Shown here: positions 11,814 to 34,100 of the stretch, piece after piece
Numbering within the stretch: position 1 is the stretch's first letter
Layout: each line of letters begins with the position of its first letter
Assembly (NCBI GenBank): GCA_016285145.1
Contig: JAEEQE010000033.1
Span: forward strand, 1 to 35,747
Direction: 5' to 3'
Source of the DNA: Bacteroidales bacterium
GTDB taxonomy: Bacteria > Bacteroidota > Bacteroidia > Bacteroidales > WCHB1-69
DNA length: 35,747 nt
Notes under the pieces: generated by a model
Seen by the model: only the letters and a program-made list of their open reading frames with translations
Database searches by the model: none
Told to the model about the DNA's origin: nothing
Position numbers and translations under genes: made by a program

Positions 11814-13976
11814 ATGAAACATGTTTTCATTTGTCTTGCCATCATGTGCGGTTTGGAGGCGGCATCTGCCCGTCCGATAGAGCGTCTTGCCCATCGGATT
11901 CTGGGTGCCGATGACACGAATTTTGTGTTTGTCTGCCAGCCCGACACCTTGGATTATTTCCAGTTGGAAACGAAGGATGGTAAAATCTGTATTACGGGCA
12001 ACAACGACAACTCCATGGCAATGGGGCTTAACTACTATTTGCAGCATTATGCGCATGTGTATGTGTCGTGGCACGTGCACGAGCCGGTGGAGTTACCAAC
12101 CCGTTACCCGCTGGTTACGGAGCCGGTGCGCAGAGAAGCCCTTGTGAAGGAACGTTTCTTCCTCAATTACTGTACTTTCGGATACACGATGCCTTGGTGG
12201 AAATGGGAGCAATGGGAGCGTTTTATCGACTGGATGGCACTCCATGGCATCACGATGCCGTTGGCGATTACCGGGCAGGAAGCCGTCTGGTACGAGGTGT
12301 GGAGAGATTATGGTTTGACTGATGAGGAGATCCGAGGCTACTTCTCCGGTCCGGCGCATCTTCCGTGGCATCGCATGGCCAATCTTGACGGTTTCGGCGG
12401 CCCGCTGCCGATGTCGTGGATAGAGGGTCAGAAGGAACTGCAGATGCGGATTCTGGAGAGGGAGCGCGAGCTGGACATGACACCGGTTCTGCCCGCCTTC
12501 GCCGGGCATGTGCCCGCCCGTTTCGCGGACATGCACCCGGAGGCGGACATCAAACCGCTGAGCGCCTGGTGCGGTTTTGCCCCCACCCATTTCCTGAACT
12601 CCTCCGATCCGCTTTTTGCGGAAATTCAGAAACGATTCATGGAGAAGGAGATAGCCCTGTTCGGCACCGACCATATCTATGGGGTGGACCCCTTCAATGA
12701 GATGGACCCGCCGCACTGGCAGCCGGAGTATCTTTCGGATGTGTCGGAGAATATCTACTACTCCCTGCGCAAAGCCGACCCCGATGCCCGATGGCTGCAG
12801 ATGACGTGGGTGTTCTACTACAAGCGCAAGTCGTGGACCACGGAACGCCTGCGGGCCTATCTGTCGGCGGTGCCCCGCAAAAGATTGATTCTGCTTGACT
12901 ATTTCTGCGAGAAGACGGAGGTGTGGCGCACCACGGAATCCTTTTTTGGACAGCCTTTTATATGGTGCTATTTGGGTAATTTCGGTGGTAATACGATGCT
13001 TGTGGGCAATGTTCATGATTTGGAGGAGCGGTTGTCGGCAGCCCTGCGTGAGGCCGGCCCCAACATGACTGGAGTCGGTTCCACCTTGGAGGCCTTTGAC
13101 GTAAGTCCGCAAATCTATGAGTATCTATTCTCTCGCGCCTGGGAATCCAATCCCGATGTGGATGCCTGGATGGCCGATTGGGCGCAGCTCCGCTGTGGAC
13201 TCTCCTTTTTCAATAGGGAATGGAAGTTGTTGAATGACAGCGTGTATAAGGATAACTCCTTCTATGGGTTGGGGACGCAGTTGGTGGCCCGGCCGTCGCT
13301 GGAAGGACATGGTACCTACTACACGAAGCCCGCTTATTCCTATTCCAACGACACACTTGGCCGGATATGTCGGCAGCTGCTTAATCCGGTTGCTGATGCG
13401 CGAATGAAAGATGCGTTTCAATATGATATCGTGAATTTGATGTCGCAATGGGTGGGCAACTATTTTATGACGGTGCGTGACAATTTTACGGCAGCCTATA
13501 AAAAGGGGGATTTGAAGGGGATGGTTCAACAGAAGAAATTGGCAGACAGGCTTTTCCGGGATGTTGATGGATTACTGTCCTCGCATCCTTCGTTCATGCT
13601 CGGGCCATGGATTGAGAATGCCCGCGCGTGGGGCACAACGCCGGCGGAAAAAGATTATTTTGAGCAGCAGGCACGGACAATCCTCACAATATGGGGTGGG
13701 CCTGTCTTGAACGATTACGCAAACCGCATGTGGGGTGGGCTGGTGAAAGACTATTACGCTAAGCGCTGGGATATGTTCTTCCGCAAGGTCCTGCAATGTG
13801 CACGTCAGGGAAAATCCTTTGATGAAAAAGCCTTTAACGAAGAACTTTCGGCCTTTGAGCAGGATTGGACTCGCCGCCACACGCATTATGCCGTATCCCC
13901 ACGTAAAAACACTTTGGGTGAGGCTCTGAAAATCTATGACCGTTATATGAGAGAATTTTATGGTGAGGTCAGGTGA
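11814..13976 (+). CDS. Alpha-N-acetylglucosaminidase (GH89)
   Basis: GH89 enzymes remove terminal alpha-linked N-acetylglucosamine from glycans such as mucin O-glycans and heparan sulfate. The 720-residue product has a signal peptide (MKHVFICLAIMCGLEAASA), so it is periplasmic or surface-located. It has the NAGLU N-terminal domain, then the TIM-barrel domain with GITMPLAITGQEAVW, then GVDPFNEMDPP carrying the putative acid/base Glu at about 296. GVGSTLEAFDVSPQ carries the putative nucleophile Glu at about 426. The spacing of 130 residues equals that of the human enzyme's catalytic pair. A helical C-terminal domain completes a normal length. It is the last gene of the nadB run. Confidence 0.93.
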   Translation: MKHVFICLAIMCGLEAASARPIERLAHRILGADDTNFVFVCQPDTLDYFQLETKDGKICITGNNDNSMAMGLNYYLQHYAHVYVSWHVHEPVELPTRYPLVTEPVRREALVKERFFLNYCTFGYTMPWWKWEQWERFIDWMALHGITMPLAITGQEAVWYEVWRDYGLTDEEIRGYFSGPAHLPWHRMANLDGFGGPLPMSWIEGQKELQMRILERERELDMTPVLPAFAGHVPARFADMHPEADIKPLSAWCGFAPTHFLNSSDPLFAEIQKRFMEKEIALFGTDHIYGVDPFNEMDPPHWQPEYLSDVSENIYYSLRKADPDARWLQMTWVFYYKRKSWTTERLRAYLSAVPRKRLILLDYFCEKTEVWRTTESFFGQPFIWCYLGNFGGNTMLVGNVHDLEERLSAALREAGPNMTGVGSTLEAFDVSPQIYEYLFSRAWESNPDVDAWMADWAQLRCGLSFFNREWKLLNDSVYKDNSFYGLGTQLVARPSLEGHGTYYTKPAYSYSNDTLGRICRQLLNPVADARMKDAFQYDIVNLMSQWVGNYFMTVRDNFTAAYKKGDLKGMVQQKKLADRLFRDVDGLLSSHPSFMLGPWIENARAWGTTPAEKDYFEQQARTILTIWGGPVLNDYANRMWGGLVKDYYAKRWDMFFRKVLQCARQGKSFDEKAFNEELSAFEQDWTRRHTHYAVSPRKNTLGEALKIYDRYMREFYGEVR

Positions 13977-20989: not shown

Positions 20990-21093
20990 CACATTTTATC
21001 TTTGTTCTGTGAAAATGAAATTCGGAAGAAAAATCATTATTTAATCGTATTAAATATTATATCCATTTTTATCCGATAGAAAAAATTTTTTTC

Positions 21094-21101
21094 TATCTTT
21101 G
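21094..21101 (+). promoter_or_regulatory. -7 promoter element of gatE-gatD
   Basis: TATCTTTG followed by CC, in an A/T-rich stretch. The ATG of gatE is 165 nt downstream, leaving an unusually long leader. Confidence 0.8.
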
Positions 21102-21107
21102 CCGCTT

Positions 21108-21265
21108 GTTTTTGAGGGGCAATAGGGAACGTGCAAAAGGAAACAGGAACTTATTCCTGGAACAGCCTCGAAGAGGCAAGACGCACGAAGTGCAATTAAC
21201 CCCATGTCAGCGGTATTGGCCGCAGTGTGGGGATGGTGAATGGCAAACAATAAACTATAAACGAT
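21108..21265 (+). promoter_or_regulatory. Structured 5' leader of gatE-gatD, candidate cis-regulatory RNA
   Basis: Four hairpins can be drawn by eye. CAGGAA/TTCCTG (21144-21149, 21154-21159) has a CTTA loop. GCCTC/GAGGC (21165-21169, 21173-21177) and GCAC/GTGC (21183-21186, 21190-21193) both have a GAA loop. A larger stem pairs CCCCAT (21200-21205) with GTGGGG (21227-21232) and GCGG with CCGC inside it. Alternative pairings exist: CGTGC (21130-21134) with GCACG (21183-21187), and GGGG (21116-21119) with CCCC (21200-21203). It does not match a riboswitch I know. Whether it binds a tRNA, protein or metabolite is unknown. Confidence 0.45.
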
Positions 21266-23233
21266 ATGCAAACCATCAATCCTCAGGAAAATTACGAGAA
21301 AAGCCGCAAGGCCATCGGCTATGTGGACCGCAAGGAGGCCACCCAAGCCGACTACGACCGCATCGGCTTCATGTCCGGGCTGGAGGTTCACCAGCAACTG
21401 GCCACAAAAGAGAAACTCTTCTGCCGCTGCCCTGCCGGCATCTTCCAGAAACCCGACGAATACGACGCGGAGTTGCTGCGCCACATGCGCCCCACGCTCT
21501 CCGAGATGGGCGAGTACGACGGCACGGCCCTCATGGAGTTCAAAACCCGCAAGAACATTGTCTATCGCATCGCGCACCGCACGGCGTGTACCTACGAAGT
21601 AGATGACACCCCGCCTTTCCCCATCAACCCCGAAGCATTGCAATATGCGCTCGAGATTGCCCTCGCTTCCAAACTGAAAATCGTTGGCGAGGTGCATATC
21701 ACACGTAAACAGTACCTTGACGGCTCCATTCCTACAGGTTTCCAGCGTACTGCCATTCTCGGTATTGATGGTGAAATACAGCTGAAGAACAAAAAGGTGC
21801 GCCTCATCCAGCTCAGCGTGGAGGAGGATGCCTGCCGCGAAGTCTCCGACATCGGCCACACGAGAATCTATCGTACCGACCGTTTGGGTATGCCGCTGAT
21901 TGAGACGGTGACCTACCCTGAGATGGTGAATCCCGACGAAGTGGAGGAGGCATGTAACTACATCCGCTTCCTGAACCGCAGCACCGGACGCGTGCGCACG
22001 GGCATCGGTGCAGGTCGTGAGGACGTGAACGTGAGCTGCACCGGCGGCACCCGCATCGAGGTCAAGGGCGTGGCCCACACCAAGTGGATTCCGGAGGTTA
22101 CCCACGTGGAGTGCTTCCGCCAGTGGGCGCTGCTCGCTATCCGCGAGCAACTGAAAGCCCGCATCTCCAAAGAGAATTGGAAAATGAACTATACGGAACT
22201 CAACCCCAAGGAGTTCCATTTCTACTTCGATCCCATCACCGATGCCATCAAGAACGGGGCTAAGGTGTATGCTGTCAATCTGCCGCAGTTTGCAGGTCTG
22301 CTCTCCCATTTCACACAACCCGGTCATCCCTTCTACAGCGAGTTCGCCGACCGGCTGAAGGTCATCGCCTGTCTGGAACGCCCCAACATGGCTACCAGCG
22401 AGGATTTGGAGGATGTGGTGAGCCGCAGCGTCTTCGAGAAGGCCGCCAAGGCTATGAATGCCGGCGACAATGACGCGCAGATTATCTTCTGGGCTCCCGA
22501 AGACGATGTGAAGACCGCCCTCGAGACCATCGAGGAGCGTGCGCTGATGGCCTTTGACGGCGTGCCGCAAGAGACTCGCAAGGCCCTGACCGACTGCACC
22601 ACCATCTTCGAGCGCGTGCTGCCCGGCGCCGACCGTATGTACCCCGACACCGACTCCGCGCCCATCCCGTTGACCAACGACTACATCGAGGAGCTGCGCA
22701 AGAACATCCCCGACGCTGTCGCCGACCGCTACGCCCAGATGGTCGAGTGGGGCGTGCCGCAGGACTGCTTCAAGTACATCTTCACACACAACCTCTTCCC
22801 GCTCATCAAGAAAATTGCCGACGAACTTGGCTATTGTCCCAAATACATCAGCACCCTCTTCGGCCAGCGGCTCAAGCACATGCACGGCCAGTACGGCAGA
22901 ATACCGTTCTGCACCTGCAAGCTCTACGACTTGTTCGCTTTCATAAAGAAAGAGAATCTCGACAAAGGCATCGTGCTTGATTTGTTAAAGCTAATGTTCG
23001 AGCATCCGACCGCCACGATGGAGGAACTTCTGAAACTCACGGGCTACACCAAAGCGTCCAAGCAGGAACTTATGGATCGAATGTTCGAGGCTGCCGACAC
23101 GTTCAAACAACGTCGCAACCGTATGATAGAAGATGGCTCCGACCTCAGAAACACAATGCTCGGCACCATCCGCCCGTTGGCTGTGGGCAATGTCTCATTC
23201 ACCGAACTGGCCAGCGAGATAAAAACCTTATAA
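21266..23233 (+). CDS. gatE: Glu-tRNA(Gln) amidotransferase subunit E
   Basis: GatE is the tRNA-binding and kinase subunit of the GatDE complex. It phosphorylates Glu-tRNA(Gln) and, with ammonia released by GatD, makes Gln-tRNA(Gln). The 655-residue product has the GatB/E signatures GLEVHQQLATKEKLFC (near 38-53), then DGSIPTGFQRT, LSVEEDACRE, TDRLGMPLIE, and REDVNVSCTGGTRIEVKG. It also has the inserted central domain (about 320-450) found in GatE but not in bacterial GatB, and the helical C-terminal tail domain. This length and insert favour GatE over GatB (about 480). GatDE is normally described as archaeal. gatD follows 22 nt later, and no gatA or gatC is near. The frame is intact, so this is not a remnant. 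Confidence 0.9.
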   Translation: MQTINPQENYEKSRKAIGYVDRKEATQADYDRIGFMSGLEVHQQLATKEKLFCRCPAGIFQKPDEYDAELLRHMRPTLSEMGEYDGTALMEFKTRKNIVYRIAHRTACTYEVDDTPPFPINPEALQYALEIALASKLKIVGEVHITRKQYLDGSIPTGFQRTAILGIDGEIQLKNKKVRLIQLSVEEDACREVSDIGHTRIYRTDRLGMPLIETVTYPEMVNPDEVEEACNYIRFLNRSTGRVRTGIGAGREDVNVSCTGGTRIEVKGVAHTKWIPEVTHVECFRQWALLAIREQLKARISKENWKMNYTELNPKEFHFYFDPITDAIKNGAKVYAVNLPQFAGLLSHFTQPGHPFYSEFADRLKVIACLERPNMATSEDLEDVVSRSVFEKAAKAMNAGDNDAQIIFWAPEDDVKTALETIEERALMAFDGVPQETRKALTDCTTIFERVLPGADRMYPDTDSAPIPLTNDYIEELRKNIPDAVADRYAQMVEWGVPQDCFKYIFTHNLFPLIKKIADELGYCPKYISTLFGQRLKHMHGQYGRIPFCTCKLYDLFAFIKKENLDKGIVLDLLKLMFEHPTATMEELLKLTGYTKASKQELMDRMFEAADTFKQRRNRMIEDGSDLRNTMLGTIRPLAVGNVSFTELASEIKTL

Positions 23234-23255
23234 ACCAATTTTCAATTCTGTAAAT

Positions 23256-24731
23256 ATGGACGACAAAACCACATTCCAAGGATATAAAGGACGGGCATTG
23301 GAGATGCTCAAAAAATATGACGTTCACGTGTGGGACAAGGCCGAGGTCGAGACCACGCGCGGGCACTTCTCGGGCAAGATCTTGCCCAGGGCCGAGAACA
23401 CCGACGACATTCACATCGTGATGAAGGTGGCCACCGGTTACAATATCGGTATCGATATCGAGACTATCACCGACATGAAGGGTGAGCGCGACCCGCAACC
23501 CGTATTCAAGATTCCGGAGAAGGAATTCCCTTACACACCGGGCTTGCCGCACGTGAAACTGCTCGGCACCGGCGGCACCATCGCCTCGCGGTTGGACTAC
23601 CGCACCGGCGCGGTGATTCCCGCCTTCTCGCCCGGCGAGCTCTACGGTGCCGTGCCCGAGCTGGCCGACATCTGCAACTTGGAGACCGAGAAGGTCTTCG
23701 CCGTCTTCTCCGAGAACATGTCGCCGACGGAGTACAAGGCCTTGGCCAACAAGATCGGTGACGAAATCAAGAAGGGCATTGAGGGTATTGTAATCGGTCA
23801 TGGTACCGACACGCTGGCGCACACCGCCACCGCGTTGACCTATATGTGCCAGAACCTGCCCATGCCGGTGGTGCTGGTCGGTTCCCAACGCTCCTCCGAC
23901 CGTCCGAGTTCCGATGCTGCCCTGAACCTAATGCACGCCATGACCGCTGCCGGTCACGGTGACATCGCCGAGGTGATGGTCTGTATGTTCGGTCCCACCA
24001 GCGACGACTATGGTTTCCTGCACCGCGGCACGCGCGTGCGCAAGATGCACAGCTCCTACCGTTCCACGTTCCGTACCATCGGCGACACGCCGTTGGCCAC
24101 GGTGAACCGCAAGGACGGCGTGCAGCCCATCAAGGAGGTCTATAACCACCGCCGCCACGGCGAGCAGCACCGCCAAGTGGAGGTCATCACCAACTACGAG
24201 GACTACAAGCGCAGCATCGCCAAGAACGACCCGAACGTCACCCGCATCGTGCCGACGTTCGACGACCGTGTGGCCATCCTCTACTACTACCCGGGTATGA
24301 AACCCGACGTGCTGGACGCCTTGATTGACAACGGCTACAAGGGCATTGTGTGGGACGGCACCGGCCTCGGGCACGTCAACAAGGGTATGTTCGACGCCAT
24401 CCAGCGCGCCACCGACGCGGGCGTGCACCAGTACATGAGCGTGCAGACCATCTGGGGCTACACCCACATGTTCGTCTATGACACCGGCCGTGACATGATG
24501 GCGCGCGGCATCATCCCCGCCGACAACATGCTGGCGGAGAGTTCCTACATCAAACTCGGCTGGGCGTTGGGCCTTACCAAGGACAGCGGCCAAAAGAGAG
24601 AGGATGTGAAGAAGCTGATGCTGACCCCCATCAACGACGAGATCACCAAGCGCGAACCCTACGACGGCTACCTCGTCTATCAAGGCGGCGTGCCGGAGGT
24701 GGAGGAATTTGTGAAGAAGGTGAGAAAGTAG
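23256..24731 (+). CDS. gatD: Glu-tRNA(Gln) amidotransferase subunit D (asparaginase-like)
   Basis: GatD hydrolyses an amide donor (Gln or Asn) and feeds ammonia to GatE. The 491-residue product has an N-terminal beta domain (about 1-90), as in archaeal GatD but not in ordinary asparaginases. The asparaginase domain follows. The four catalytic residues of the archaeal enzyme (reported as T101, T177, D178 and K254 in Methanothermobacter) have counterparts T108 (GTGGTIAS), T184 and D185 (GHGTDT) and K263 (TRVRKMHSS), with near-identical spacing. This argues for a functional enzyme. The tail ends in YQGGVPEVEEFVKKVRK. A stand-alone L-asparaginase is the alternative; the N-terminal domain, spacing and gatE partner disfavour it. 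A partial copy of its 3' end follows at 24953. Confidence 0.9.
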   Translation: MDDKTTFQGYKGRALEMLKKYDVHVWDKAEVETTRGHFSGKILPRAENTDDIHIVMKVATGYNIGIDIETITDMKGERDPQPVFKIPEKEFPYTPGLPHVKLLGTGGTIASRLDYRTGAVIPAFSPGELYGAVPELADICNLETEKVFAVFSENMSPTEYKALANKIGDEIKKGIEGIVIGHGTDTLAHTATALTYMCQNLPMPVVLVGSQRSSDRPSSDAALNLMHAMTAAGHGDIAEVMVCMFGPTSDDYGFLHRGTRVRKMHSSYRSTFRTIGDTPLATVNRKDGVQPIKEVYNHRRHGEQHRQVEVITNYEDYKRSIAKNDPNVTRIVPTFDDRVAILYYYPGMKPDVLDALIDNGYKGIVWDGTGLGHVNKGMFDAIQRATDAGVHQYMSVQTIWGYTHMFVYDTGRDMMARGIIPADNMLAESSYIKLGWALGLTKDSGQKREDVKKLMLTPINDEITKREPYDGYLVYQGGVPEVEEFVKKVRK

Positions 24732-24826: not shown

Positions 24827-25129
24827 TTGATGGCAGACAAGGATGTGGGCACGGTGAAAGCATTGCAGCAGATTCGACTATCTCGTGTTATTACGAGCAG
24901 GAAGGGCAAACCGTACACAATCCTGGGGTTGAATTGCTGGAAAAGAATATTCACCCCCATCAACGACGAAATCACCTATTGCGAGCCCTGCGACGGCTGC
25001 CTCGTCTGTCAAGGCGGCGTGCCGGAAGAGGAGGAGCTCTATTGGGCTATTTTAACACATCGCACGCTGAGGCCCATGCCTTTGTCCTGTGTGGTGTCAA
25101 TGAGCATCGGGCAGCTGTGCGTGATGTAG
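24827..25129 (+). pseudogene. Partial duplicate of the gatD 3' end inside a 100-codon frame
   Basis: Bases 24953-25035 align without gaps to gatD 24624-24706; I count about 10 differences in 83 by hand. The copied protein part changes KREPYDGYLVYQGGVPE to YCEPCDGCLVCQGGVPE, so the Tyr codons become Cys codons. This gives C-EP-C-DG-C-LV-C, a CxxCxxCxxC pattern. The rest of the frame (MADKDVGTVKALQQIRLSR and onward) does not resemble gatD. No promoter is visible, and the frame ends antisense to the 3' end of the FISUMP gene. I treat it as a fragment left by a local duplication. A short real Cys-rich peptide is possible but unsupported. Confidence 0.6.
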
Positions 25130-27297
25130 GAACAGTTACCTTTCGTAACAGTAGTGGTGGGTGTGGAAGTCCAGTAATAGGTCTCACCCAACAGGTTGTA
25201 ATATCTACCTGTGGTCGGATCATAGTAACCGGAAGCCACTGCCTCGAAGCCGGAGCCGTTCGTACCTTGGGCGCCCGGCAGCCACTTGCTGGCATCGTCG
25301 GACTTCACGTCGCTGAAGTTGGCGACGCTGTTGGCCATGGTCCGGTATTGCCCGTCAGTAGGCAGAGCCCAACCAGAGGGACATATCCCTTGAATGTATG
25401 TGATATTGCTGATAGGATCGGTTGCGGTAGTGGGGGCAGCAGTGGAATTTTCAGGCAGACCTACGGCTGAATACCAAGAGTAAAGACGACCGAATTTCTC
25501 GGTGTTGGCATCCTTGTTTTGATATACATAGCTATTGCCTGTTACACCTGTGATGGTTTTGAGGTTGGTTCTGGTCCAGCATTCGCAACCCAAGCGAACA
25601 GTCTCGTATTCATTGCCGTCCACATCAGCAACGATCATGGTACCACCGCAGGGAGGATAAACGACGACATATTTCTTGGGGTATTCAATATAAGTGCCGG
25701 AAGGACTGGTGAGGCGCCATACGATAGTGTATTCGCCAGCAGTGATACGACCCAAGATAGCACCTTCGTTAGCGCTGCTCTTGTCGTTAGACAAGCTTAG
25801 ATCGTTTATGCTGTATTGGCTTGAACCTGTCGTTGAATAGGAGGGAATGTGCACATAATACAAGGTGTCACAAATACCATAATATAATGTGATAGTGTCG
25901 TTTGAATCATCGAAATCTATATCTGCCGCAGAAAAGGGAGAAAGAGTGGCAGGAGCTTTTACATCGATAGAGATATTATAAGTGGTACCACATACTGTTT
26001 TATAATTTGCCACCACTGTAACAGTGGTGTTAGGGGCCATCTCTGTGCCGGCGGTATCAACCTGAACGTAAGTGGAATTGACGATGAGGTTGCAAGTGGT
26101 ATGGAAGCAGGCTTCGAGGGTATCTTTCAAATTTGGAACCATATACGTGCGGTTAGCTGGATTGATTTGGGCACTAACCTCGGTAACGGGAGTCCAATTT
26201 GATTCATCGGAGGTTGTGAATGAGCCGTTTATAGTGTTGCTGGGACATCCGTGTTCATCTTCTACTGTCAGCCTGTAATTGTATTGCTGATCGCAAGGAT
26301 AAGGTGAAGCAGGGATGGTGTCTATACTAGAAGTGGTTCCGTTTATTGAACCATCCCAGAAATAAGTATAGGTGCCACTGCCAGGGGTGATGTCGGCGGA
26401 GATATAATACTCTTCCAGTCCGGGACAAGTGTCAGCAGGGATAAGCTTGTTGATAACAGGAGGAGTCGCCACATTTAATTCCCAGGTGTTGGTGGATGCG
26501 ACAGTTGCGCAACCTGGCAATTGAATAGTATAACGGAATTTTTGGGAAGCCGTAAAGTTCGTGATGACAATCTTGTATAACGTGTCATTTGCGCCAGCGA
26601 CAGTTGTCCATTCATTGCCATTCCATTCTTGCCATTGAATGGTATAGATTCCACTTCCCACAGAAGGATTGGCTGTTAAGGTGTCGTCGATGCTGGTTCC
26701 ATGGCAGTAATTGTTCTTAGCATCTTCTGTAGTGATAATACCGGGGTCAATAATTCCTCTCACAGTTATGGTAACTGTGAAATTTTCAGTATTAGAGCTA
26801 GATGAAGCAGTTACATTGTACACCACGTCAATATTGTTGTAGGTGCTGTTGGTCAGTGTGCCGCTGATGTTGGAGGCCCCGCTACCGCTTGTTGTTCCGC
26901 TAATGCCGGGAACGGAGGGAGCGGACCATGAGTATGTTGTTCCTTCGGGAATAGTCCCTGAGGGGATAATGGTGAAACTTTCACCTGAACAAACAGTGTC
27001 AGTCATGTCGTCAACGGCTAATACTGGAGGGGCAACATAGGTAATAGCGACGTAACCATTGGCCCCTTTAGCACCGTTCTCGTCGCTGATACCTGTACAT
27101 TGGGAGCCGGAACCGCCGCCACCGACACATTCGATGGTCTGAGAGGTGACTTCGGCAGGAACTTCCCATGTGCTACTTTCGGTGAATGTCTTTTCCATGG
27201 TCGCTGTTTGCGCAGTAGCTGTCCCACAAAGAAAACATAGTACCGCAGCAAAAATGAAGTTGTTTAGAAAATTTGTCGCTTTAAAATCCATGTTCAT
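25039..27297 (-). CDS. Secreted PKD-like and FISUMP domain protein, 752 residues
   Basis: A signal peptide starts the product (about residues 1-29, ending GTATA). The N-terminal half holds a glycine-rich GGGGSGSQC segment like those of predicted adhesive proteins. A chain of PKD/Ig-like modules follows, with VCSGESFTIIPSG and IIDPGIITTEDAKNNYCHG among their starts. The last 190 residues are a FISUMP domain: VADVDGNEYETVRLGCECW, then YSWYSAVGL, then ICPSGWALPTDG, then YYWTST, and GLSVRCVKIAQ at the end. It has no T9SS sorting tail after the FISUMP domain, so its surface attachment is unclear. Two ATGs (residues 1 and 3) could serve as start. Its own promoter is at 27358-27365. Confidence 0.82.
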   Translation of the reverse strand: MNMDFKATNFLNNFIFAAVLCFLCGTATAQTATMEKTFTESSTWEVPAEVTSQTIECVGGGGSGSQCTGISDENGAKGANGYVAITYVAPPVLAVDDMTDTVCSGESFTIIPSGTIPEGTTYSWSAPSVPGISGTTSGSGASNISGTLTNSTYNNIDVVYNVTASSSSNTENFTVTITVRGIIDPGIITTEDAKNNYCHGTSIDDTLTANPSVGSGIYTIQWQEWNGNEWTTVAGANDTLYKIVITNFTASQKFRYTIQLPGCATVASTNTWELNVATPPVINKLIPADTCPGLEEYYISADITPGSGTYTYFWDGSINGTTSSIDTIPASPYPCDQQYNYRLTVEDEHGCPSNTINGSFTTSDESNWTPVTEVSAQINPANRTYMVPNLKDTLEACFHTTCNLIVNSTYVQVDTAGTEMAPNTTVTVVANYKTVCGTTYNISIDVKAPATLSPFSAADIDFDDSNDTITLYYGICDTLYYVHIPSYSTTGSSQYSINDLSLSNDKSSANEGAILGRITAGEYTIVWRLTSPSGTYIEYPKKYVVVYPPCGGTMIVADVDGNEYETVRLGCECWTRTNLKTITGVTGNSYVYQNKDANTEKFGRLYSWYSAVGLPENSTAAPTTATDPISNITYIQGICPSGWALPTDGQYRTMANSVANFSDVKSDDASKWLPGAQGTNGSGFEAVASGYYDPTTGRYYNLLGETYYWTSTPTTTVTKGNCSYITHSCPMLIDTTQDKGMGLSVRCVKIAQ

Positions 27298-27452: not shown

Positions 27453-28143
27453 TTAATCCCGGAGACAGCGGACAGAATAGCCATTGAACCAGTGTGTGCA
27501 GCTTCGGTACATGATGGAACCGGTATGGTACAATACGAGATTGTAAGTTTCCGAAGCCCTACACTTGGTACAGCTCCAAAAGTGGGCTTCTTTTCCGTAA
27601 TCATTGTTTTCACTCATGCCCTCGCCTGCAGGAAATGCATCGAAACCAGTGGCGTTGTTTGCACTTAGGTCGTTGCCCACCGCGCAGTTGTTCGTGGTAG
27701 TATTCCACCCGGAAGTGGAAGCCAATGCCTTGGCGATATTAGCACTGTTGCTGTCACAAATGTATTCGCTTTGGCTACTCACATAGTCCGTAAGCTGTGT
27801 CCATTCCGCATCGCTCGGCACATGCCAACCTGTGGGACAGACACCCTGAACACCACTGGGATTGGCGCTGCTGGAGGCGGCACCGTGCATTAGCGCAGGC
27901 CAATTGTAGCGCAGGCCATGTCCCATCAAAGAAGTGCTGGGGGCAAAGAAAAAATCATCACCGTAGTAGTAAGGATCTGGATTGTAAGGATCTGTCAGAT
28001 TGTTGTTGCTGCTATAGGGAATGGAAGTGCCGTCAGCATAGTGTGTGGTACGGAGATTCTCCCTCATCCAGCACTGCTGGCCGATTTGAACGGTGTTGTA
28101 GGTATTGCCGTCGTAGTCGGTGACCGTGGGCGTGCCAGGACAA
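27453..28143 (-). other. FISUMP domain 6 (C-terminal) of the giant protein
   Basis: This copy starts at CPGTPTVTDYDGN and ends at the protein's C-terminus, SVRCLRD. Its terminal loop reads FWSCTKCRASETYNLVLYHTG and onward, quite unlike the loops of copies 3 to 5. Most of its codons end in C or T. Confidence 0.7.
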
Positions 28144-31100
28144 GTTTGGACATTCTGGGCTGAACTGCCGCCGACAGTCGTGAACGTCATCTCGTCGCCG
28201 TAGATAATGCCGAACACAGAGGTGACGAAAGCACGGTAGGTGTAGCCTATGCCAGCGGTGAGGCCAGCAAGGGCGTAGCTCATCGTGGAATCCGAGACAA
28301 ATACCTGCGTGTACGTTCCGCCTATTGTAGTCTTCCATTCAAAGCCATGATTCTCGATTGGCACATTGTCGGGATTCACGATGGTGGCATTGAGGATGGC
28401 GGATGTCTGCGTGACATCAGTCACCGAACGTGTGGTCATTGTAGGGGCTTGGACAGCAATGCCGGAGTCATCGCGGACACAACGTACGGAATAACCGTAT
28501 TGCTTGGGGCTGTGCCAGCCACTCACCTTCGCGTAATTATATTCAATGGTTCTGCGGTTGGCATCCGTAGCAGTCCAGAAATAAGCTCTGTTGCCAGAAT
28601 TGCCGTAACTTCTATATTCGTAGTAGCCCGCAGGCAAAATGCTAAAGCCTGTGGCATTATTGTTTTCTGGCGTATTGCCTACAGCACAGGTATTCGGACT
28701 ACTATCCCAGCCTATAGAAGAACTCAAAGCCTTGGCTATACTTTGTCCATCACTATTATCACATCGGCACCGAGGCCGGCAGCTCACACAGTCGATCATC
28801 TGCGACCACTCTGCCTCACTCGGCAAATGCCATCCCATAGGACAAACACCCTGTACACCGCTGGGATTGGCACCACTAGAGGCCGAACCGTGCATCACAG
28901 CAGGCCAGTTATATAAGAGGCCCCGCTCCGTCAAGGCAAAGTTGGAGGATGTGTAATCGTAGTAGTAAGGATTTGCATCGCTAGAGTTGCTGCCGCCTAC
29001 GGGAATGGAAGTGCCGTCAGCATAGTGCGTGGTACGGAGATTCTCTTTCATCCAGCACTGATAGCCCAGTTGTATAGTGTTATACATGTTGCCGTCCACA
29101 TCCGCCACCTTGCTCGTACCACACGTAAAGGCGACAGAGGTGGTAGTGGTAAAGTTCACCTCATTGCCATAGATTGTGTCGGAAGTGGTAGTGACGAAAG
29201 CACGGTAGGTGTAAGTAGTAGCAGGGGTGAGACCGGTAAGGGCGTAACTCATCGTGGAGCCCGAGGCAAACACCTGCGTGTAGCTGCCGCCATCAGTGGC
29301 TTTCCATTCAAAGCCTTGAGCTGTGATTGGCACACTGTTGGGGTTTGCGATGCTGCCATTCAGCGTGGCAGAAGTAGCTGCATGGGAGGTGGCACTGTCG
29401 GTGGTCACCGTGGGAGCATGGGTGGCATTGCCGGACCCGTCGCGGAGACAGCGGACAGAAAACCCAGCATTCTTGAAGTGGTCGTTCTTGCCCACGTTGG
29501 CACCGCCGTAGTAAAGACCAGGGAAGTAGGCGGTGTTGCCATAGCGCTCCGTAGCACTCCAAAATAAGGCGTTGCTGCCGAAACTATCGTAATAGCTGCC
29601 GTTGATGCGGCCAGCGGGAAGGGCCGAGAAACCCGTGGCATTGTTGGCATGCACACTCTGGTCGCCAGGATAGCACTCACCGCTATGGTAGTAAATCCAC
29701 CCCGTGGTCGCGGCCAACGCCTTGGCAATATAGGTGTTGTTGCTACCACACACATACTGGCTTTGACTGCTCACATAATCGGTCAACTGTGTCCACTCCG
29801 CATCACTCGGAACATGCCAGCCAGTGGGACAGATACCCTGAACACCACTGGGATTAGCCGATGAGGAAGATGCCCCATGCATCATCGCTGGCCAATTGTA
29901 CAGGTAGCCATAGACGGCGACATTGGCCTCGTCATTATCCGGGGCATAACGGTAAGGATCGGTGTTACTGTAAGTGTCGCCCGCAGGGATGAGGGTGTTG
30001 TCGGCGTAGTGCGTGGTGCGCAGGTTCTCCTTCATCCAACACTGATTTCCTATCTGCACCGTGTTATAGATATTGCCGTCGTAGTCGGTTACATTAGGTG
30101 TGCCAGGGCAAGGTTGACCGTCAACAGCCGTACTTCCAGACGTGGTGGTGAAGTTTACCTCGCTACCGTAGGTGGTACCGAAACCCGTAGTAACGAAAGC
30201 CCTATAGGTATAAGTTGTAGCAGGGGTGAGACCGGTAAGGTCATAGCTCATCGTAGAGCCCGTGGCTGACACCTGCGTGTAGCTGCCGCCATCGGCGGCT
30301 TTCCATTCGAAGCCCTGAGCTGTGATTGGCACGCTGTCGGGGTTTGTGATGCTACCATTCAGCGTGGCAGAAGTAGCCGCGAGGGATGTGACACTATCTG
30401 TGGTCACCGTGGGAGCATGGGTAGCATAGCCAGACCCATTGCGGAGGCAGCGGACCGATAAACCGCCGTTCTTGTCGAAGTAGTTCCTGTTCACGTTGGC
30501 AAGATTGAAGCCCAGGCGGCGCAGCGACACGCCGGTCGCATCGTACTCCGTGGAGGACCAGAAGTAGGCGAAGTAGCCCGCGTTGCTGAGCCCGTTGTTC
30601 CAACTGCCGGAAGGCACAGCGGAAAAGCCCGTTGAGTTGTTGGCACTCAGATTGTTGCCCACTTCACATGAACTTATGGAGGAGCTCATCCCAGTGGCTA
30701 AGTTCCACCCAGTGGTGGATGCTAAGGCCTTGGCAATATTATCGCTGCTGCCGCCGCAGGTGTACTCGCTATGGCTTCTTACGTAGTTTGTCAGCTGCGT
30801 CCACTCCGCATCGCTCGGCAAATGCCATCCTGTGGGACAAATGCCCTGCACACCGCTGGGGTTGGCGTTGCTGGAAGAAGCACCGTGCATCGCTGCAGGC
30901 CAGTTGTAGTGGTAGCCGCGCTGATCCAATGGGATGCTGGATAATGTGTCGTAATAGTATGGGGCGATGGAGCTGGCGTAGCTGCCGCCGAGGGGGATAG
31001 CGGTGCCGTTAGAGTAGTGCGTGGTGCGCAGGTTCTCCCTCATCCAGCATTGCTCACCGATTTGCACCGTGTTGTAAATGTTGCCGTCGTAGTCGGTTAC

Positions 31101-34100
31101 CGTGGGTGCGTCTGGACAAGCTTGCAAAGCGATGGGAGTCATGTCAATAATTTCATCTTCTTCAACGGTAACCTCTCTGCTGTATTCACAGCCTGCATAG
31201 TCTCTCACGTACGCTGTATAGACTCCCGGCGACAAAGAAGGGAACATATTGCTTGTGATAAATTCGTTTCCATCGAGAGAATATTTGTAAGGAGGTGTCC
31301 CTTCTATACCCTGTAGAATCAGTGCACCATTACTGTATTCCGCATCCAAGCCGAGGTCAGACCATGCGCAATTCATGTTGTCAATATGTCCATACGTGAT
31401 GGTTCGGATGCACCCGAAATCATCTTTCACCGACAATACATGGCCAGATAAAGCCGACAGGACCGGCAATCTGTCCAAACTGACAAAATTTCCTCCATTC
31501 ACCGAATAGGTATAGGGTGGTCTGCCTCCCTCTGCCTGCAACGTCAGGGTGTTGCCCGTGACAAGATACTTCAGTTTGAGTGTGGAGCTGGCGCAACCTT
31601 CGAATTCGTATGCGGTAAACACCACCGGTGCTCCCTTGATTGGGTTCTGTTCACAATCATAAACGTATGCGTACAACTGATGAACGTCGGAATTTTGGCC
31701 AGGTTCCCACCTTGCTTGCGCAATGCCATTCGCATCTGTTCGCGCAGAAGAGGGAACAACAGTATCACCATCCTGCGGCCTGAAAATGACAATGGCATTG
31801 CGAGAAGGCTTGCCACCGCTCCCCAAAACTTTCACTTTGACAAGACTGGATGCTCGAGCATTTAAATTATTGCCGCTATAACGACACACCGTATCCGGGA
31901 ACACATGCTTCTCGCCAACAGGTAAAGTCCACTCTTTTGACCAATTTTTAGGAATAATCTTATCAACCAATTTTATCCCTTTGAGATCCAACTTCAGGAA
32001 CAACTCAGATGTGAGTTTTCCTTGCACTCCTGCTATATGTGCTTCGTTAGATCCTCCAGCGCATTCTTTTATTTTGAATTTGTAACCGGCCTTGACGCGT
32101 GGACCCACTACACCTGCCAACTTCACATTCGCATAGCCGGAAGCCGATGCTTCCAGTTCCAACGATCCTTCGAGATTGACCTCGCCAACGCGCCCCATAT
32201 CGCATTTGCCATCGAAGCCTTTGTCGATGGTGAAATCATTGTATCGTCCCCAATAGTTGACCCCGTATGTAAAAGTGGCCTCCGCATTAAATCTGTATCG
32301 TGCCTCCATTGAAGCACCTATGGTGCCTTTAACTTCAACACTCGCCCCGCAATCCACCGTGAACGGAATCACAATAGGACCGACAGGAACGGCAAAAGCC
32401 ACTTCAGGAATCTTTAAGAAAACGAATTCAAAAGGGGTTACTTCAATATTAAGAGGTGTAAATTTAGGAACTATATCCGCTCCCACACTGAAGTTGGCTC
32501 CGTAAAGGCCAAATCTTAAATGACGGTTGTCTTTGTCATATGCAAAAACAGGGTTGAGTTCCAAATGGAAGTGTGCACTGTCGATTTTATACTCGAAATC
32601 TGGGGCAATATCAATATCGCTGTCTAACTCCAAATATTTAGGTCTATCGTCATCGGAATCCCCTCTGCGGGAATTGCCACGCAACATATTCACCCGGTTG
32701 CCATTATTGTCTTCCACATCCATGCGCATTAAATAGACGGTGCCGCTTTTAGTCATATTCGGATTCGAGCGCAGTTCGTTTCGGGTGGGAATATGGTCAA
32801 GATACTCCACATTCTGTCTTGTCGGCTCATTTTGGGCTGTGTTGTCCGCATTTTCTGCAGCAGGTATCGCATCAAACTGAATCACCCCGCTTTCCAAAAT
32901 GTCATACAATGAGGCTTGAGAGGTTTGCATGGCGTACGTAGAATCATTGGCCATCGACCAGGAATCGACCATGCGCATAAAGCCACCGTTGATCAGGCTG
33001 ACCAGAATAGTGGAATCACCAATCACAATGTTCGGGTCACTGAAAGAGATTTCGTAGTAACCCTGTGCCATCTGCGCCGAATCGCTGAAAATGATGTCCG
33101 TGGTATCCACCATCACCACTCTGTCGCTCACCACCGTCCGCACAAAACGCACTTCAATGTCATCGGAGTTGGAACCACAGCTGTTAGTTAGAGTCCAGCG
33201 CAGGCGGTATAGCGTGTCGGTGCCGGAGAACCTCGTATAAGCATCATTCGGGGCAGAAAGGAAACCGCCTACACCCTGCAGAATCTGCCAATTGCCCGTC
33301 GCACCCTCCACCATATTGGCATGCAAATTCAAAGTGTCTCCAATATTAGCCGTTCGCGAAATTCCCGCATTTGCAGACGGAGACATCTGCAACAACCTCA
33401 CTGGCGAGTACTCTGGCGGACAGTTTTCATACGAGACCACAGCCCTTACAAACTGCGTCTGTTCGGGCTTGTAGGTCAGTTGCGGCTCGATGGCACCGGG
33501 GATATTGTACCAAGAGATTGTATCGTTGGAAAATTGCCACTGTATGCCTCCATTTTGGTGATTGTACAAGGTCAGAACCACGCTGTCGATACCGACACAG
33601 ATAGTGCTGCCAGGAGAAAGGGTAGGATGCCACGTGGTGTTCGTGTCAACAGAGCAAGGGTCGGGCATAATCAAGCTGTTGGCGGAAGTGTCAGAAGTGG
33701 TAAACGTCACCTCACTGCCGTAACTTGTGCCGGAAGCGGTGGTGATGAACGCCCGGTAGGTGTAACCCGTACTGGGGGTAAGTCCGGTGAGTGAGTAGCT
33801 CATCGTGGAATCCGTGGCCGTGGCCGTCACCGATGTGTAGCTACCGCCATCGGTGACTTTCCACTCGAATCCCAAATCCGTAATGGTCACATTGTCGGGG
33901 TTCGACAACGTGCCGTTCAGCGTGGCGGAGACCTCCGTAACGGATGTGGCACTATCGGTGGTCACCGTGGGTGCTTGGCTGGTGCTGCCAGACGCATCCT
34001 GAACGCATCGGACAGAAATGACATAGCCGGAGCCGGAAACGGAGCAGTATCCTTGCAATGCAGCATGGACTTCACAAGCATTCCCATTACCATTAAGGGC

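Follow-up and report, generated by a model that had tools for sequence, protein, structure and literature searches.

A gatE–gatD pair in a Bacteroidales genome and a proposed bacterial sister clade of the archaeal GatDE amidotransferases

The gatE–gatD pair and its family membership

The window analysed here, a stretch of 35,747 nucleotides (nt) that makes up one contig of a Bacteroidales genome (JAEEQE010000033.1, assembly GCA_016285145.1), carries on its forward strand the two genes of a Glu-tRNA(Gln) amidotransferase of the GatDE family. The gene gatE (21266–23233, + strand) encodes subunit E, a protein of 655 amino acids (aa) with a GatB/GatE catalytic domain (PF02934), the GatE insert, and helical and tail domains. 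It is followed after 22 nt by gatD (23256–24731, + strand), which encodes the 491-aa subunit D; both frames are intact. Scored against NCBIfam models, GatE reached 408.7 bits for TIGR00134 (cut-off 319.55) and 463.9 for NF003107 (cut-off 456), and it failed the GatB models, with 110.6 for TIGR00133 (cut-off 314.8) and 126 bits against a required 338 for the top GatB model. GatD scored 459.8 bits with the GatD equivalog TIGR02153 (cut-off 324); it also passed the broader type I asparaginase subfamily model TIGR00519 with the lower score of 338.2 (cut-off 260.5). Its Pfam domains are GatD_N (PF18195) plus the N- and C-terminal domains of an asparaginase-like amidase (PF00710 and PF17763).

All four catalytic residues of GatD (T108, T184, D185 and K263) are kept, at spacings of 76 and 78 residues that are close to those of the archaeal enzymes from Pyrococcus abyssi (76/77) and Methanothermobacter thermautotrophicus (76/76), and all four are invariant among 20 aligned GatD sequences. 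In GatE, the motifs formed by 36 positions whose conservation exceeds 90% in each of GatB, archaeal GatE and bacterial GatE are intact. The insert could be aligned with both archaeal structures and is absent from aligned GatB. By sequence, the top Protein Data Bank (PDB) matches of GatE were 2d6f_C and 1zq1_C. An AlphaFold2 model of GatE (mean predicted local distance difference test score (pLDDT) 89.0, with the C-terminal tail among the less certain parts at block values of 69–85) had 1zq1_C, foremost, and 2d6f as its top fold matches, and a model of GatD (mean pLDDT 80.6) had 1zq1_A and 2d6f. The equivalog scores, amidase site, cradle motifs, insert and tail together confirmed that the pair belongs to the GatDE family. 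The original prediction, made from the sequence of the window, was thus right that both genes are intact and adjacent, that the catalytic residues lie at near-archaeal spacing and that the GatE-specific insert is present. Its term 'archaeal-type' is better replaced by 'bacterial sister clade of archaeal GatDE'. Because the family cut-offs are passed, such genes are likely to be annotated automatically as GatD and GatE in databases.

Purifying selection acts on both subunits within the genus. When each window gene was compared with 21 genes from the same genus, the median proportions of nonsynonymous (pN) and synonymous (pS) differences were 0.086 and 0.511 for GatE and 0.032 and 0.404 for GatD. 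Identity across the genus is 96–99% for GatD and 82–97% for GatE (loci L039–L065; here and below, G, C, L and f labels are our own handles for genomes, contigs, loci and families), and GatD in the genus exceeds by about 30 aa the length of 461 aa that is typical of other families. GC content at third codon positions (GC3) is 0.758 for gatE and 0.846 for gatD, the highest of 17 window genes tested, the other 15 lying at 0.491–0.748.

Phylogeny, gene order and spread among bacteria

In an unrooted tree of GatE, 46 bacterial and 49 archaeal rows were split by one branch with a Shimodaira–Hasegawa approximate likelihood ratio test (SH-aLRT) support of 100, and one branch likewise divided 37 bacterial from 33 archaeal rows in the GatD tree. 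The loci L184–L263 supplied much of this material, with GatE of 420 aa or more in 67 of the 80 and GatD of 300 aa or more in 42; another 26 Bacteroidota rows were hand-picked from those at hand, the loci L264–L298 stayed outside the unrooted trees (their archaeal rows are in no tree) and the two archaeal rows taken from structures are incomplete. When the GatE tree was rooted on 13 GatB sequences, the bacterial (44 rows) and archaeal (23 rows) sequences were each monophyletic, with SH-aLRT values of 98 and 98; for this tree, 23 of the 49 archaeal rows were picked by name for breadth and 15 of the 59 bacterial rows were left out. A more careful rooted tree of 21 bacterial, 21 archaeal and 7 GatB rows gave ultrafast bootstrap (UFBoot) values of 100 and 100 for the two clades, each of which was whole in 100% of 200 bootstrap trees. 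GatB formed a clade of its own, so that the grouping of gatE with bacterial GatB, which the original prediction had named as part of an outcome that would speak against it, was not obtained.

The window GatE lies deep inside the bacterial clade, with the archaea, including Methanobrevibacter and Methanothermobacter, on the other side; neither the GatE nor the GatD tree placed the window sequence within the archaeal branching. As judged from these trees, bacterial GatDE is a clade sister to all archaeal GatDE sampled, and no sampled archaeal lineage is its donor. Of the two origins originally considered, the trees agree with a GatDE lineage that is old in bacteria, both GatE clades being monophyletic on the GatB root, and they do not support a recent transfer from an archaeon, as bacterial GatE and GatD are split from every archaeal sequence. 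A split as old as the domains and an early transfer would both fit these trees. Phyla are mixed inside the bacterial clade, where sequences from WOR-3 and from acidobacterial, zixibacterial, chlorobial and fermentibacterial genomes join the Bacteroidales type. A second gatE type occurs in other Bacteroidota, and one family, f60, has both types (L132 and L182 versus L104 and L105). Because of this mixing and of the family with two types, GatDE has likely been exchanged among bacteria. The GatE of a Coatesbacteria genome (G468, locus L245) has a basal position in the bacterial clade.

Gene order also separates the two domains, being E–D in bacteria and D–E in archaea. In all 57 distinct genomes found to carry both genes, gatE lies upstream of gatD, in the same orientation and no more than about 1 kb away. 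Among loci recovered with a degenerate GatE pattern, the order was E–D in 26 of 26 bacterial loci with both genes, and 10 further loci showed one gene only. Of the archaeal loci with both genes (n = 50), 47 were called D–E, 2 E–D and 1 on opposite strands, and 29 more showed one gene only. The two archaeal E–D calls (L252 and L256) are better read as D–E, as their coordinates show an overlong frame and a gatD at a contig edge.

GatE scored over its cut-off in 32 of 60 relatives, the window's own genome included. The genus accounts for 25 of these (out of 36 genomes) and the rest of the order for 7 (out of 24 genomes, from as many families). GatE is therefore present in 8 of the 25 families sampled within the order; in another two genus genomes a GatE fragment lies at a contig edge. 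Across 392 sampled genomes of the phylum, 31 have GatE, own included, and as counted from the listings these divide into 0 of 104 other members of the class and 30 of 287 genomes outside it, the latter falling in 7 of 45 families (counted by hand). The degenerate pattern, run over one genome per species as a sample rather than a census, matched at least 115 places, and all 115 listed also match the GatE profile. Of these, 36 are bacterial by record title, mainly from Bacteroidota, with others from Planctomycetota, Gemmatimonadota, Acidobacteriota, Myxococcota, Zixibacteria, Fermentibacteria and relatives, WOR-3, Cloacimonetes, Krumholzibacteriota, Chlorobiota and Coatesbacteria. The pair sits on single contigs of 3.7–3.9 Mb in three genomes (G191, G183 and G353) and, for Planctomycetota, in a 3.8-Mb Phycisphaerales chromosome record (L215). 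The recurrence of the pair in many bacterial genomes and its bacterial relatives in the trees uphold the earlier placement of the operon in a bacterial chromosome. One IMG/VR contig fitted the GatE pattern and had no GatE by profile, so a viral or mobile origin was set aside and the match ascribed to chance.

Most genus loci fetched have full-length, intact gatE and gatD frames. Four genomes of the same genus that are 94–99% complete (G002, G004, G033 and G034) gave no GatE match and have a full GlnRS. GatDE is dispensable in these four, because near-complete genomes lack a GatE match yet have GlnRS.

GlnRS, tRNA-Gln and the neighbourhood of the pair

The window is contig 45 of a 2.73-Mb genome in 71 contigs that is 94.8% complete. 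Elsewhere in this genome GlnRS is encoded by two glnS copies, each of which stops at a contig edge, and a GlnRS C-terminal piece is found at each of two further contig edges (contigs C42, C49, C19 and C20 of G000, loci L069–L072). The two copies have 87% DNA identity over the 1.3 kb compared, and the last 120 nt before the break are identical; the broken pattern looks as if it arose by gene conversion or from a mixture of strains. AsnRS is present (628 bits), as are tRNA-Gln genes with anticodons TTG and CTG, both with the pair U1–A72. Since GlnRS, AsnRS and tRNA-Gln are all encoded, the cell has direct routes to Gln-tRNA and Asn-tRNA. A search of the genome with the GatE/GatB model gave a single place, gatE, and hence no GatB; GatA and GatC were not searched for. 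The same model also matches control genomes such as Bacillus subtilis, which we take to have GatB only, and the GatE profile picks up the GatB of relatives. The original prediction saw no gatCAB or glnS nearby, which hinted at GatDE taking the place of an absent GlnRS or GatCAB. The profile search indeed gave no glnS match on the window contig, and no GatB was found in the genome; the proposed replacement fails for GlnRS, given the two glnS copies elsewhere in the genome and the GlnRS of most other GatE-bearing genomes.

Of the 53 bacterial genomes with GatE that were examined, 30 belong to the phylum sample and 23 lie behind the pattern loci; GlnRS was over its cut-off in 47. The other six are G310, G346, G372, G452, G461 and G468. 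G461 (Phycisphaerales) was not counted as a true absence, as the GlnRS C-terminus was found and the stretch holds 100 N, and nothing was built on G468 (Coatesbacteria), which gave GatE with no GlnRS and no GatB match and whose completeness is not known. In the genomes from outside the class, GlnRS was present in 27 of 30 GatE-positive versus 82 of 257 GatE-negative genomes (Fisher P = 6e-10); counted by hand at the level of families, the figures are 7 of 7 versus 19 of 38 (P = 0.014). Most GatE-positive genomes of the phylum sample have, among the matches listed, weaker ones read as GatB (checked for G346 and G372). Read from match positions, 5 of the 23 genomes behind pattern loci contain the two halves of a GatB frame in addition to GatE (G452, G459, G460, G461 and G462), and G469 is ambiguous. 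In this last genome, from Gemmatimonadetes, GlnRS lies in an 843-aa open frame with a GatB/YqeY-like tail match (contig C264). AsnRS was over its cut-off in 56 of the 60 relatives, so that Asn-tRNA has its own route in them.

A match for tRNA-Gln(UUG) was obtained in 48 of the 60 genomes, and the pair at 1–72 is U1–A72 in every one of the 30 loci fetched, which include the window genome's own and belong without exception to the same genus. ARAGORN also reported a tRNA-like sequence without an assignable anticodon in the window's genome (L170, G000:C18:52093–52163). As a specificity marker for GluRS we considered Arg358 of the Thermus thermophilus enzyme, presumably a residue with that role. 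Arg occupies the position in the window genome's own GluRS and also in 14 GluRS from genomes lacking both GatE and GlnRS, and the marker was dropped; the exceptions among the rows are Phe in G461 and Lys in L355. GluRS was sought in 27 genomes and was missing from one, G063; the GluRS start of L351 was not found and the L353 row has a gap.

The surroundings of the pair vary from genome to genome, even inside the genus, and the gatE–gatD pair alone is kept throughout. Four Bacteroidales loci (L055, L056, L199 and L230) share a block of OstA/Lpt, MlaD, Amidase_3 and LptD genes, although not each gene is found everywhere; this block concerns the envelope, not translation. The commonest neighbour family (5 locus groups) was rejected as a true neighbour, its frames overlying gatE on the opposite strand. 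In a single case, a Bacteroidota genome (G073; L396, 2999–7943), glnS lies tail to tail with gatE–gatD about 40 bp away. Upstream of gatE in the window, a motif scan found a −7 promoter-like motif of Bacteroidota type, TATCTTTG (21094–21101, + strand), and a second such motif at 20997–21004; for both we assumed the consensus TAnnTTTG. Parts of the gatE 5′ leader (about 21047–21235) recur in related genomes, some at two sites near gatDE, and the leader may contain a dispersed repeat. No Rfam family besides a tRNA reached the gathering score in the window, this leader included. Downstream lies a broken second copy of the gatD 3′ end (24953–25035, + strand; 88% identity over 83 nt), and the relative L059 has more copies of this piece at 12149–12221 and 13219–13303. 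Farther on, a frame at 25039–27297 has Fib_succ_major and PKD_5 domains and adjoins an open frame of 2,747 aa (27453–35696, − strand) whose translation contains similar, recurring stretches.

Proposed role, rival explanations and comparison with known systems

We consider it probable, on the evidence of comparative sequence analysis, that the pair encodes a working tRNA-dependent amidotransferase of the bacterial sister clade that backs up GlnRS, either by rescuing Glu-tRNA(Gln) or as a conditional second route. By analogy with the known family, GatD would hydrolyse glutamine or asparagine, and the ammonia released would reach GatE; there, the glutamate of Glu-tRNA(Gln) would be activated by phosphorylation with ATP and amidated to give Gln-tRNA(Gln). 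Nothing in the sequence of either protein argues against this chemistry. The co-occurrence with GlnRS suggests that GatDE would not be the main route to Gln-tRNA(Gln). Given the presence of GlnRS and the dispensability of GatDE, the enzyme most likely rescues Glu-tRNA(Gln) made by GluRS or acts as a conditional second route, and its substrate would be a tRNA(Gln) with the bacterial U1–A72 rather than the archaeal A1–U72.

Several points weigh against this role. If the host GluRS is strict, Glu-tRNA(Gln) would be scarce, and the Arg358 marker cannot show whether GluRS forms it, because GlnRS-less genomes carry the same Arg. Archaeal GatDE is described in PMC9499178 as reading the D-loop and A1:U72 of tRNA(Gln), and the host tRNA does not have that pair at 1–72; since all 30 loci have U1–A72, tRNA recognition must differ from that of archaeal GatDE. 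The association with GlnRS is much weaker when families are counted and may partly reflect shared ancestry, and two of the genomes with GatDE and without GlnRS, G372 and G346, have GatB.

The most serious challenge comes from the idea that the fold was kept for a new job, on another aminoacyl-tRNA such as Asp-tRNA(Asn) or on a substrate outside translation, with no overlap with GlnRS. Coexisting GlnRS and AsnRS leave no evident need for GatDE; 15 columns, mostly in the catalytic domain, separate bacterial from archaeal GatE (for example I155–P156, where archaea have N and T), and the extra 30 aa of GatD in the genus point the same way. We nevertheless regard a new job as unlikely. The motifs common to GatB and archaeal GatE are intact, the AsnRS found in nearly all relatives supplies Asn-tRNA, and the neighbours suggest no other pathway, the envelope cluster of the four Bacteroidales loci being the sole block seen in several lineages. 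Decay has less in its favour: that GlnRS now does the work and the pair is an unused relic would agree with the four near-complete genus genomes that lack GatE and with the broken gatD 3′ end just downstream, yet the frames are full length and intact in most genus loci fetched, pN is far under pS in both genes and the catalytic residues of GatD are invariant, which makes a relic very improbable.

Two further explanations would make the pair foreign. A recent transfer of the operon into a Bacteroidota lineage from an archaeon, for instance a co-resident methanogen, would be in keeping with reviews that describe GatDE as found only or exclusively in archaea (PMC8007984, PMC8762117 and PMC9499178), and both proteins do score above the cut-offs of archaeal models. 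It is hard to credit when the window sequence lies deep in the bacterial clade with every archaeon in the trees on the other side, when gene order is reversed and when GatE is spread over 8 of 25 families of the order and 7 of 45 outside the class. Contamination is harder still to sustain. An assembly chimera or a binning error with an archaeal contig could be suspected from a genome in 71 contigs with glnS broken at contig edges and from the GC3 of gatE and gatD, which tops that of the window genes tested; the pair, however, recurs in differing surroundings across dozens of bacterial genomes, stands on contigs and a chromosome of megabase size and has bacterial relatives in the trees. The chance that the pair is such an artefact, which the original prediction had itself named as a way to be wrong, is negligible.

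Relative to described GatDE, the clade at the level of a domain, the inverted gene order and the cellular setting are new; the enzyme family itself is known. No description of bacterial or Bacteroidota GatDE was found in the titles or abstracts of the open-licence literature, within the part of the longer result sets that was covered. PMC9499178 reports the idea that GatDE was present in the last universal common ancestor (LUCA) though it is now restricted to archaea, and that its co-evolution with the tRNA-Gln of archaea barred GlnRS from these organisms. With a second, bacterial clade as sister of the archaeal one, the LUCA question becomes testable, and cells with GatDE and GlnRS together run contrary to the exclusion described for archaea. 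They also make bacterial enzymes available for asking what purpose a second route to Gln-tRNA serves. A wider proposal, which we offer tentatively and hold to be rather doubtful, is that GatDE is no archaeal signature and forms two domain-level clades that stem from a common ancestor or a very early exchange, the bacterial one having persisted as a partner of GlnRS rather than as the route to Gln-tRNA, in a tRNA-dependent quality control that converts Glu-tRNA(Gln) and has a shifted identity pair, U1–A72.

Set beside known systems, GatD has in common with its parent fold, type I L-asparaginase (AnsA), the N- and C-terminal asparaginase domains and a passing TIGR00519 score. It differs in having GatD_N, in its higher score with the GatD equivalog and in the position of its gene, which in the 57 genomes with both lies downstream of gatE, on its strand and no farther off than about 1 kb; a free-standing asparaginase, with no GatD_N and no gatE partner, is thus not what the window encodes. 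With GatCAB, whose GatB is the homologue of GatE, the pair has the catalytic cradle and its 36 highly conserved positions in common. It differs in that the window GatE lies below the GatB cut-offs and carries an insert that aligned GatB, a clearly separate clade, does not have, and in that the amidase partner is the asparaginase-like GatD rather than GatA.

The closest likeness is to archaeal GatDE itself, represented by the structures from P. abyssi (PDB 1ZQ1) and M. thermautotrophicus, the latter with tRNA-Gln (PDB 2D6F). Both subunits and their domains are alike, as are the GatD catalytic residues with their near-equal spacing and the GatE insert, and the best sequence and fold matches are to these enzymes. 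The differences are that the window pair falls in the sister clade with the order E–D instead of the archaeal D–E, and that GatDE coexists with GlnRS in the window's genome and in most GatE-bearing bacterial genomes examined, whereas the archaeal route through a non-discriminating GluRS (ND-GluRS) runs in cells without GlnRS. According to PMC9499178, the archaeal enzyme reads A1:U72, whereas both tRNA-Gln of the bacterial host carry U1–A72.

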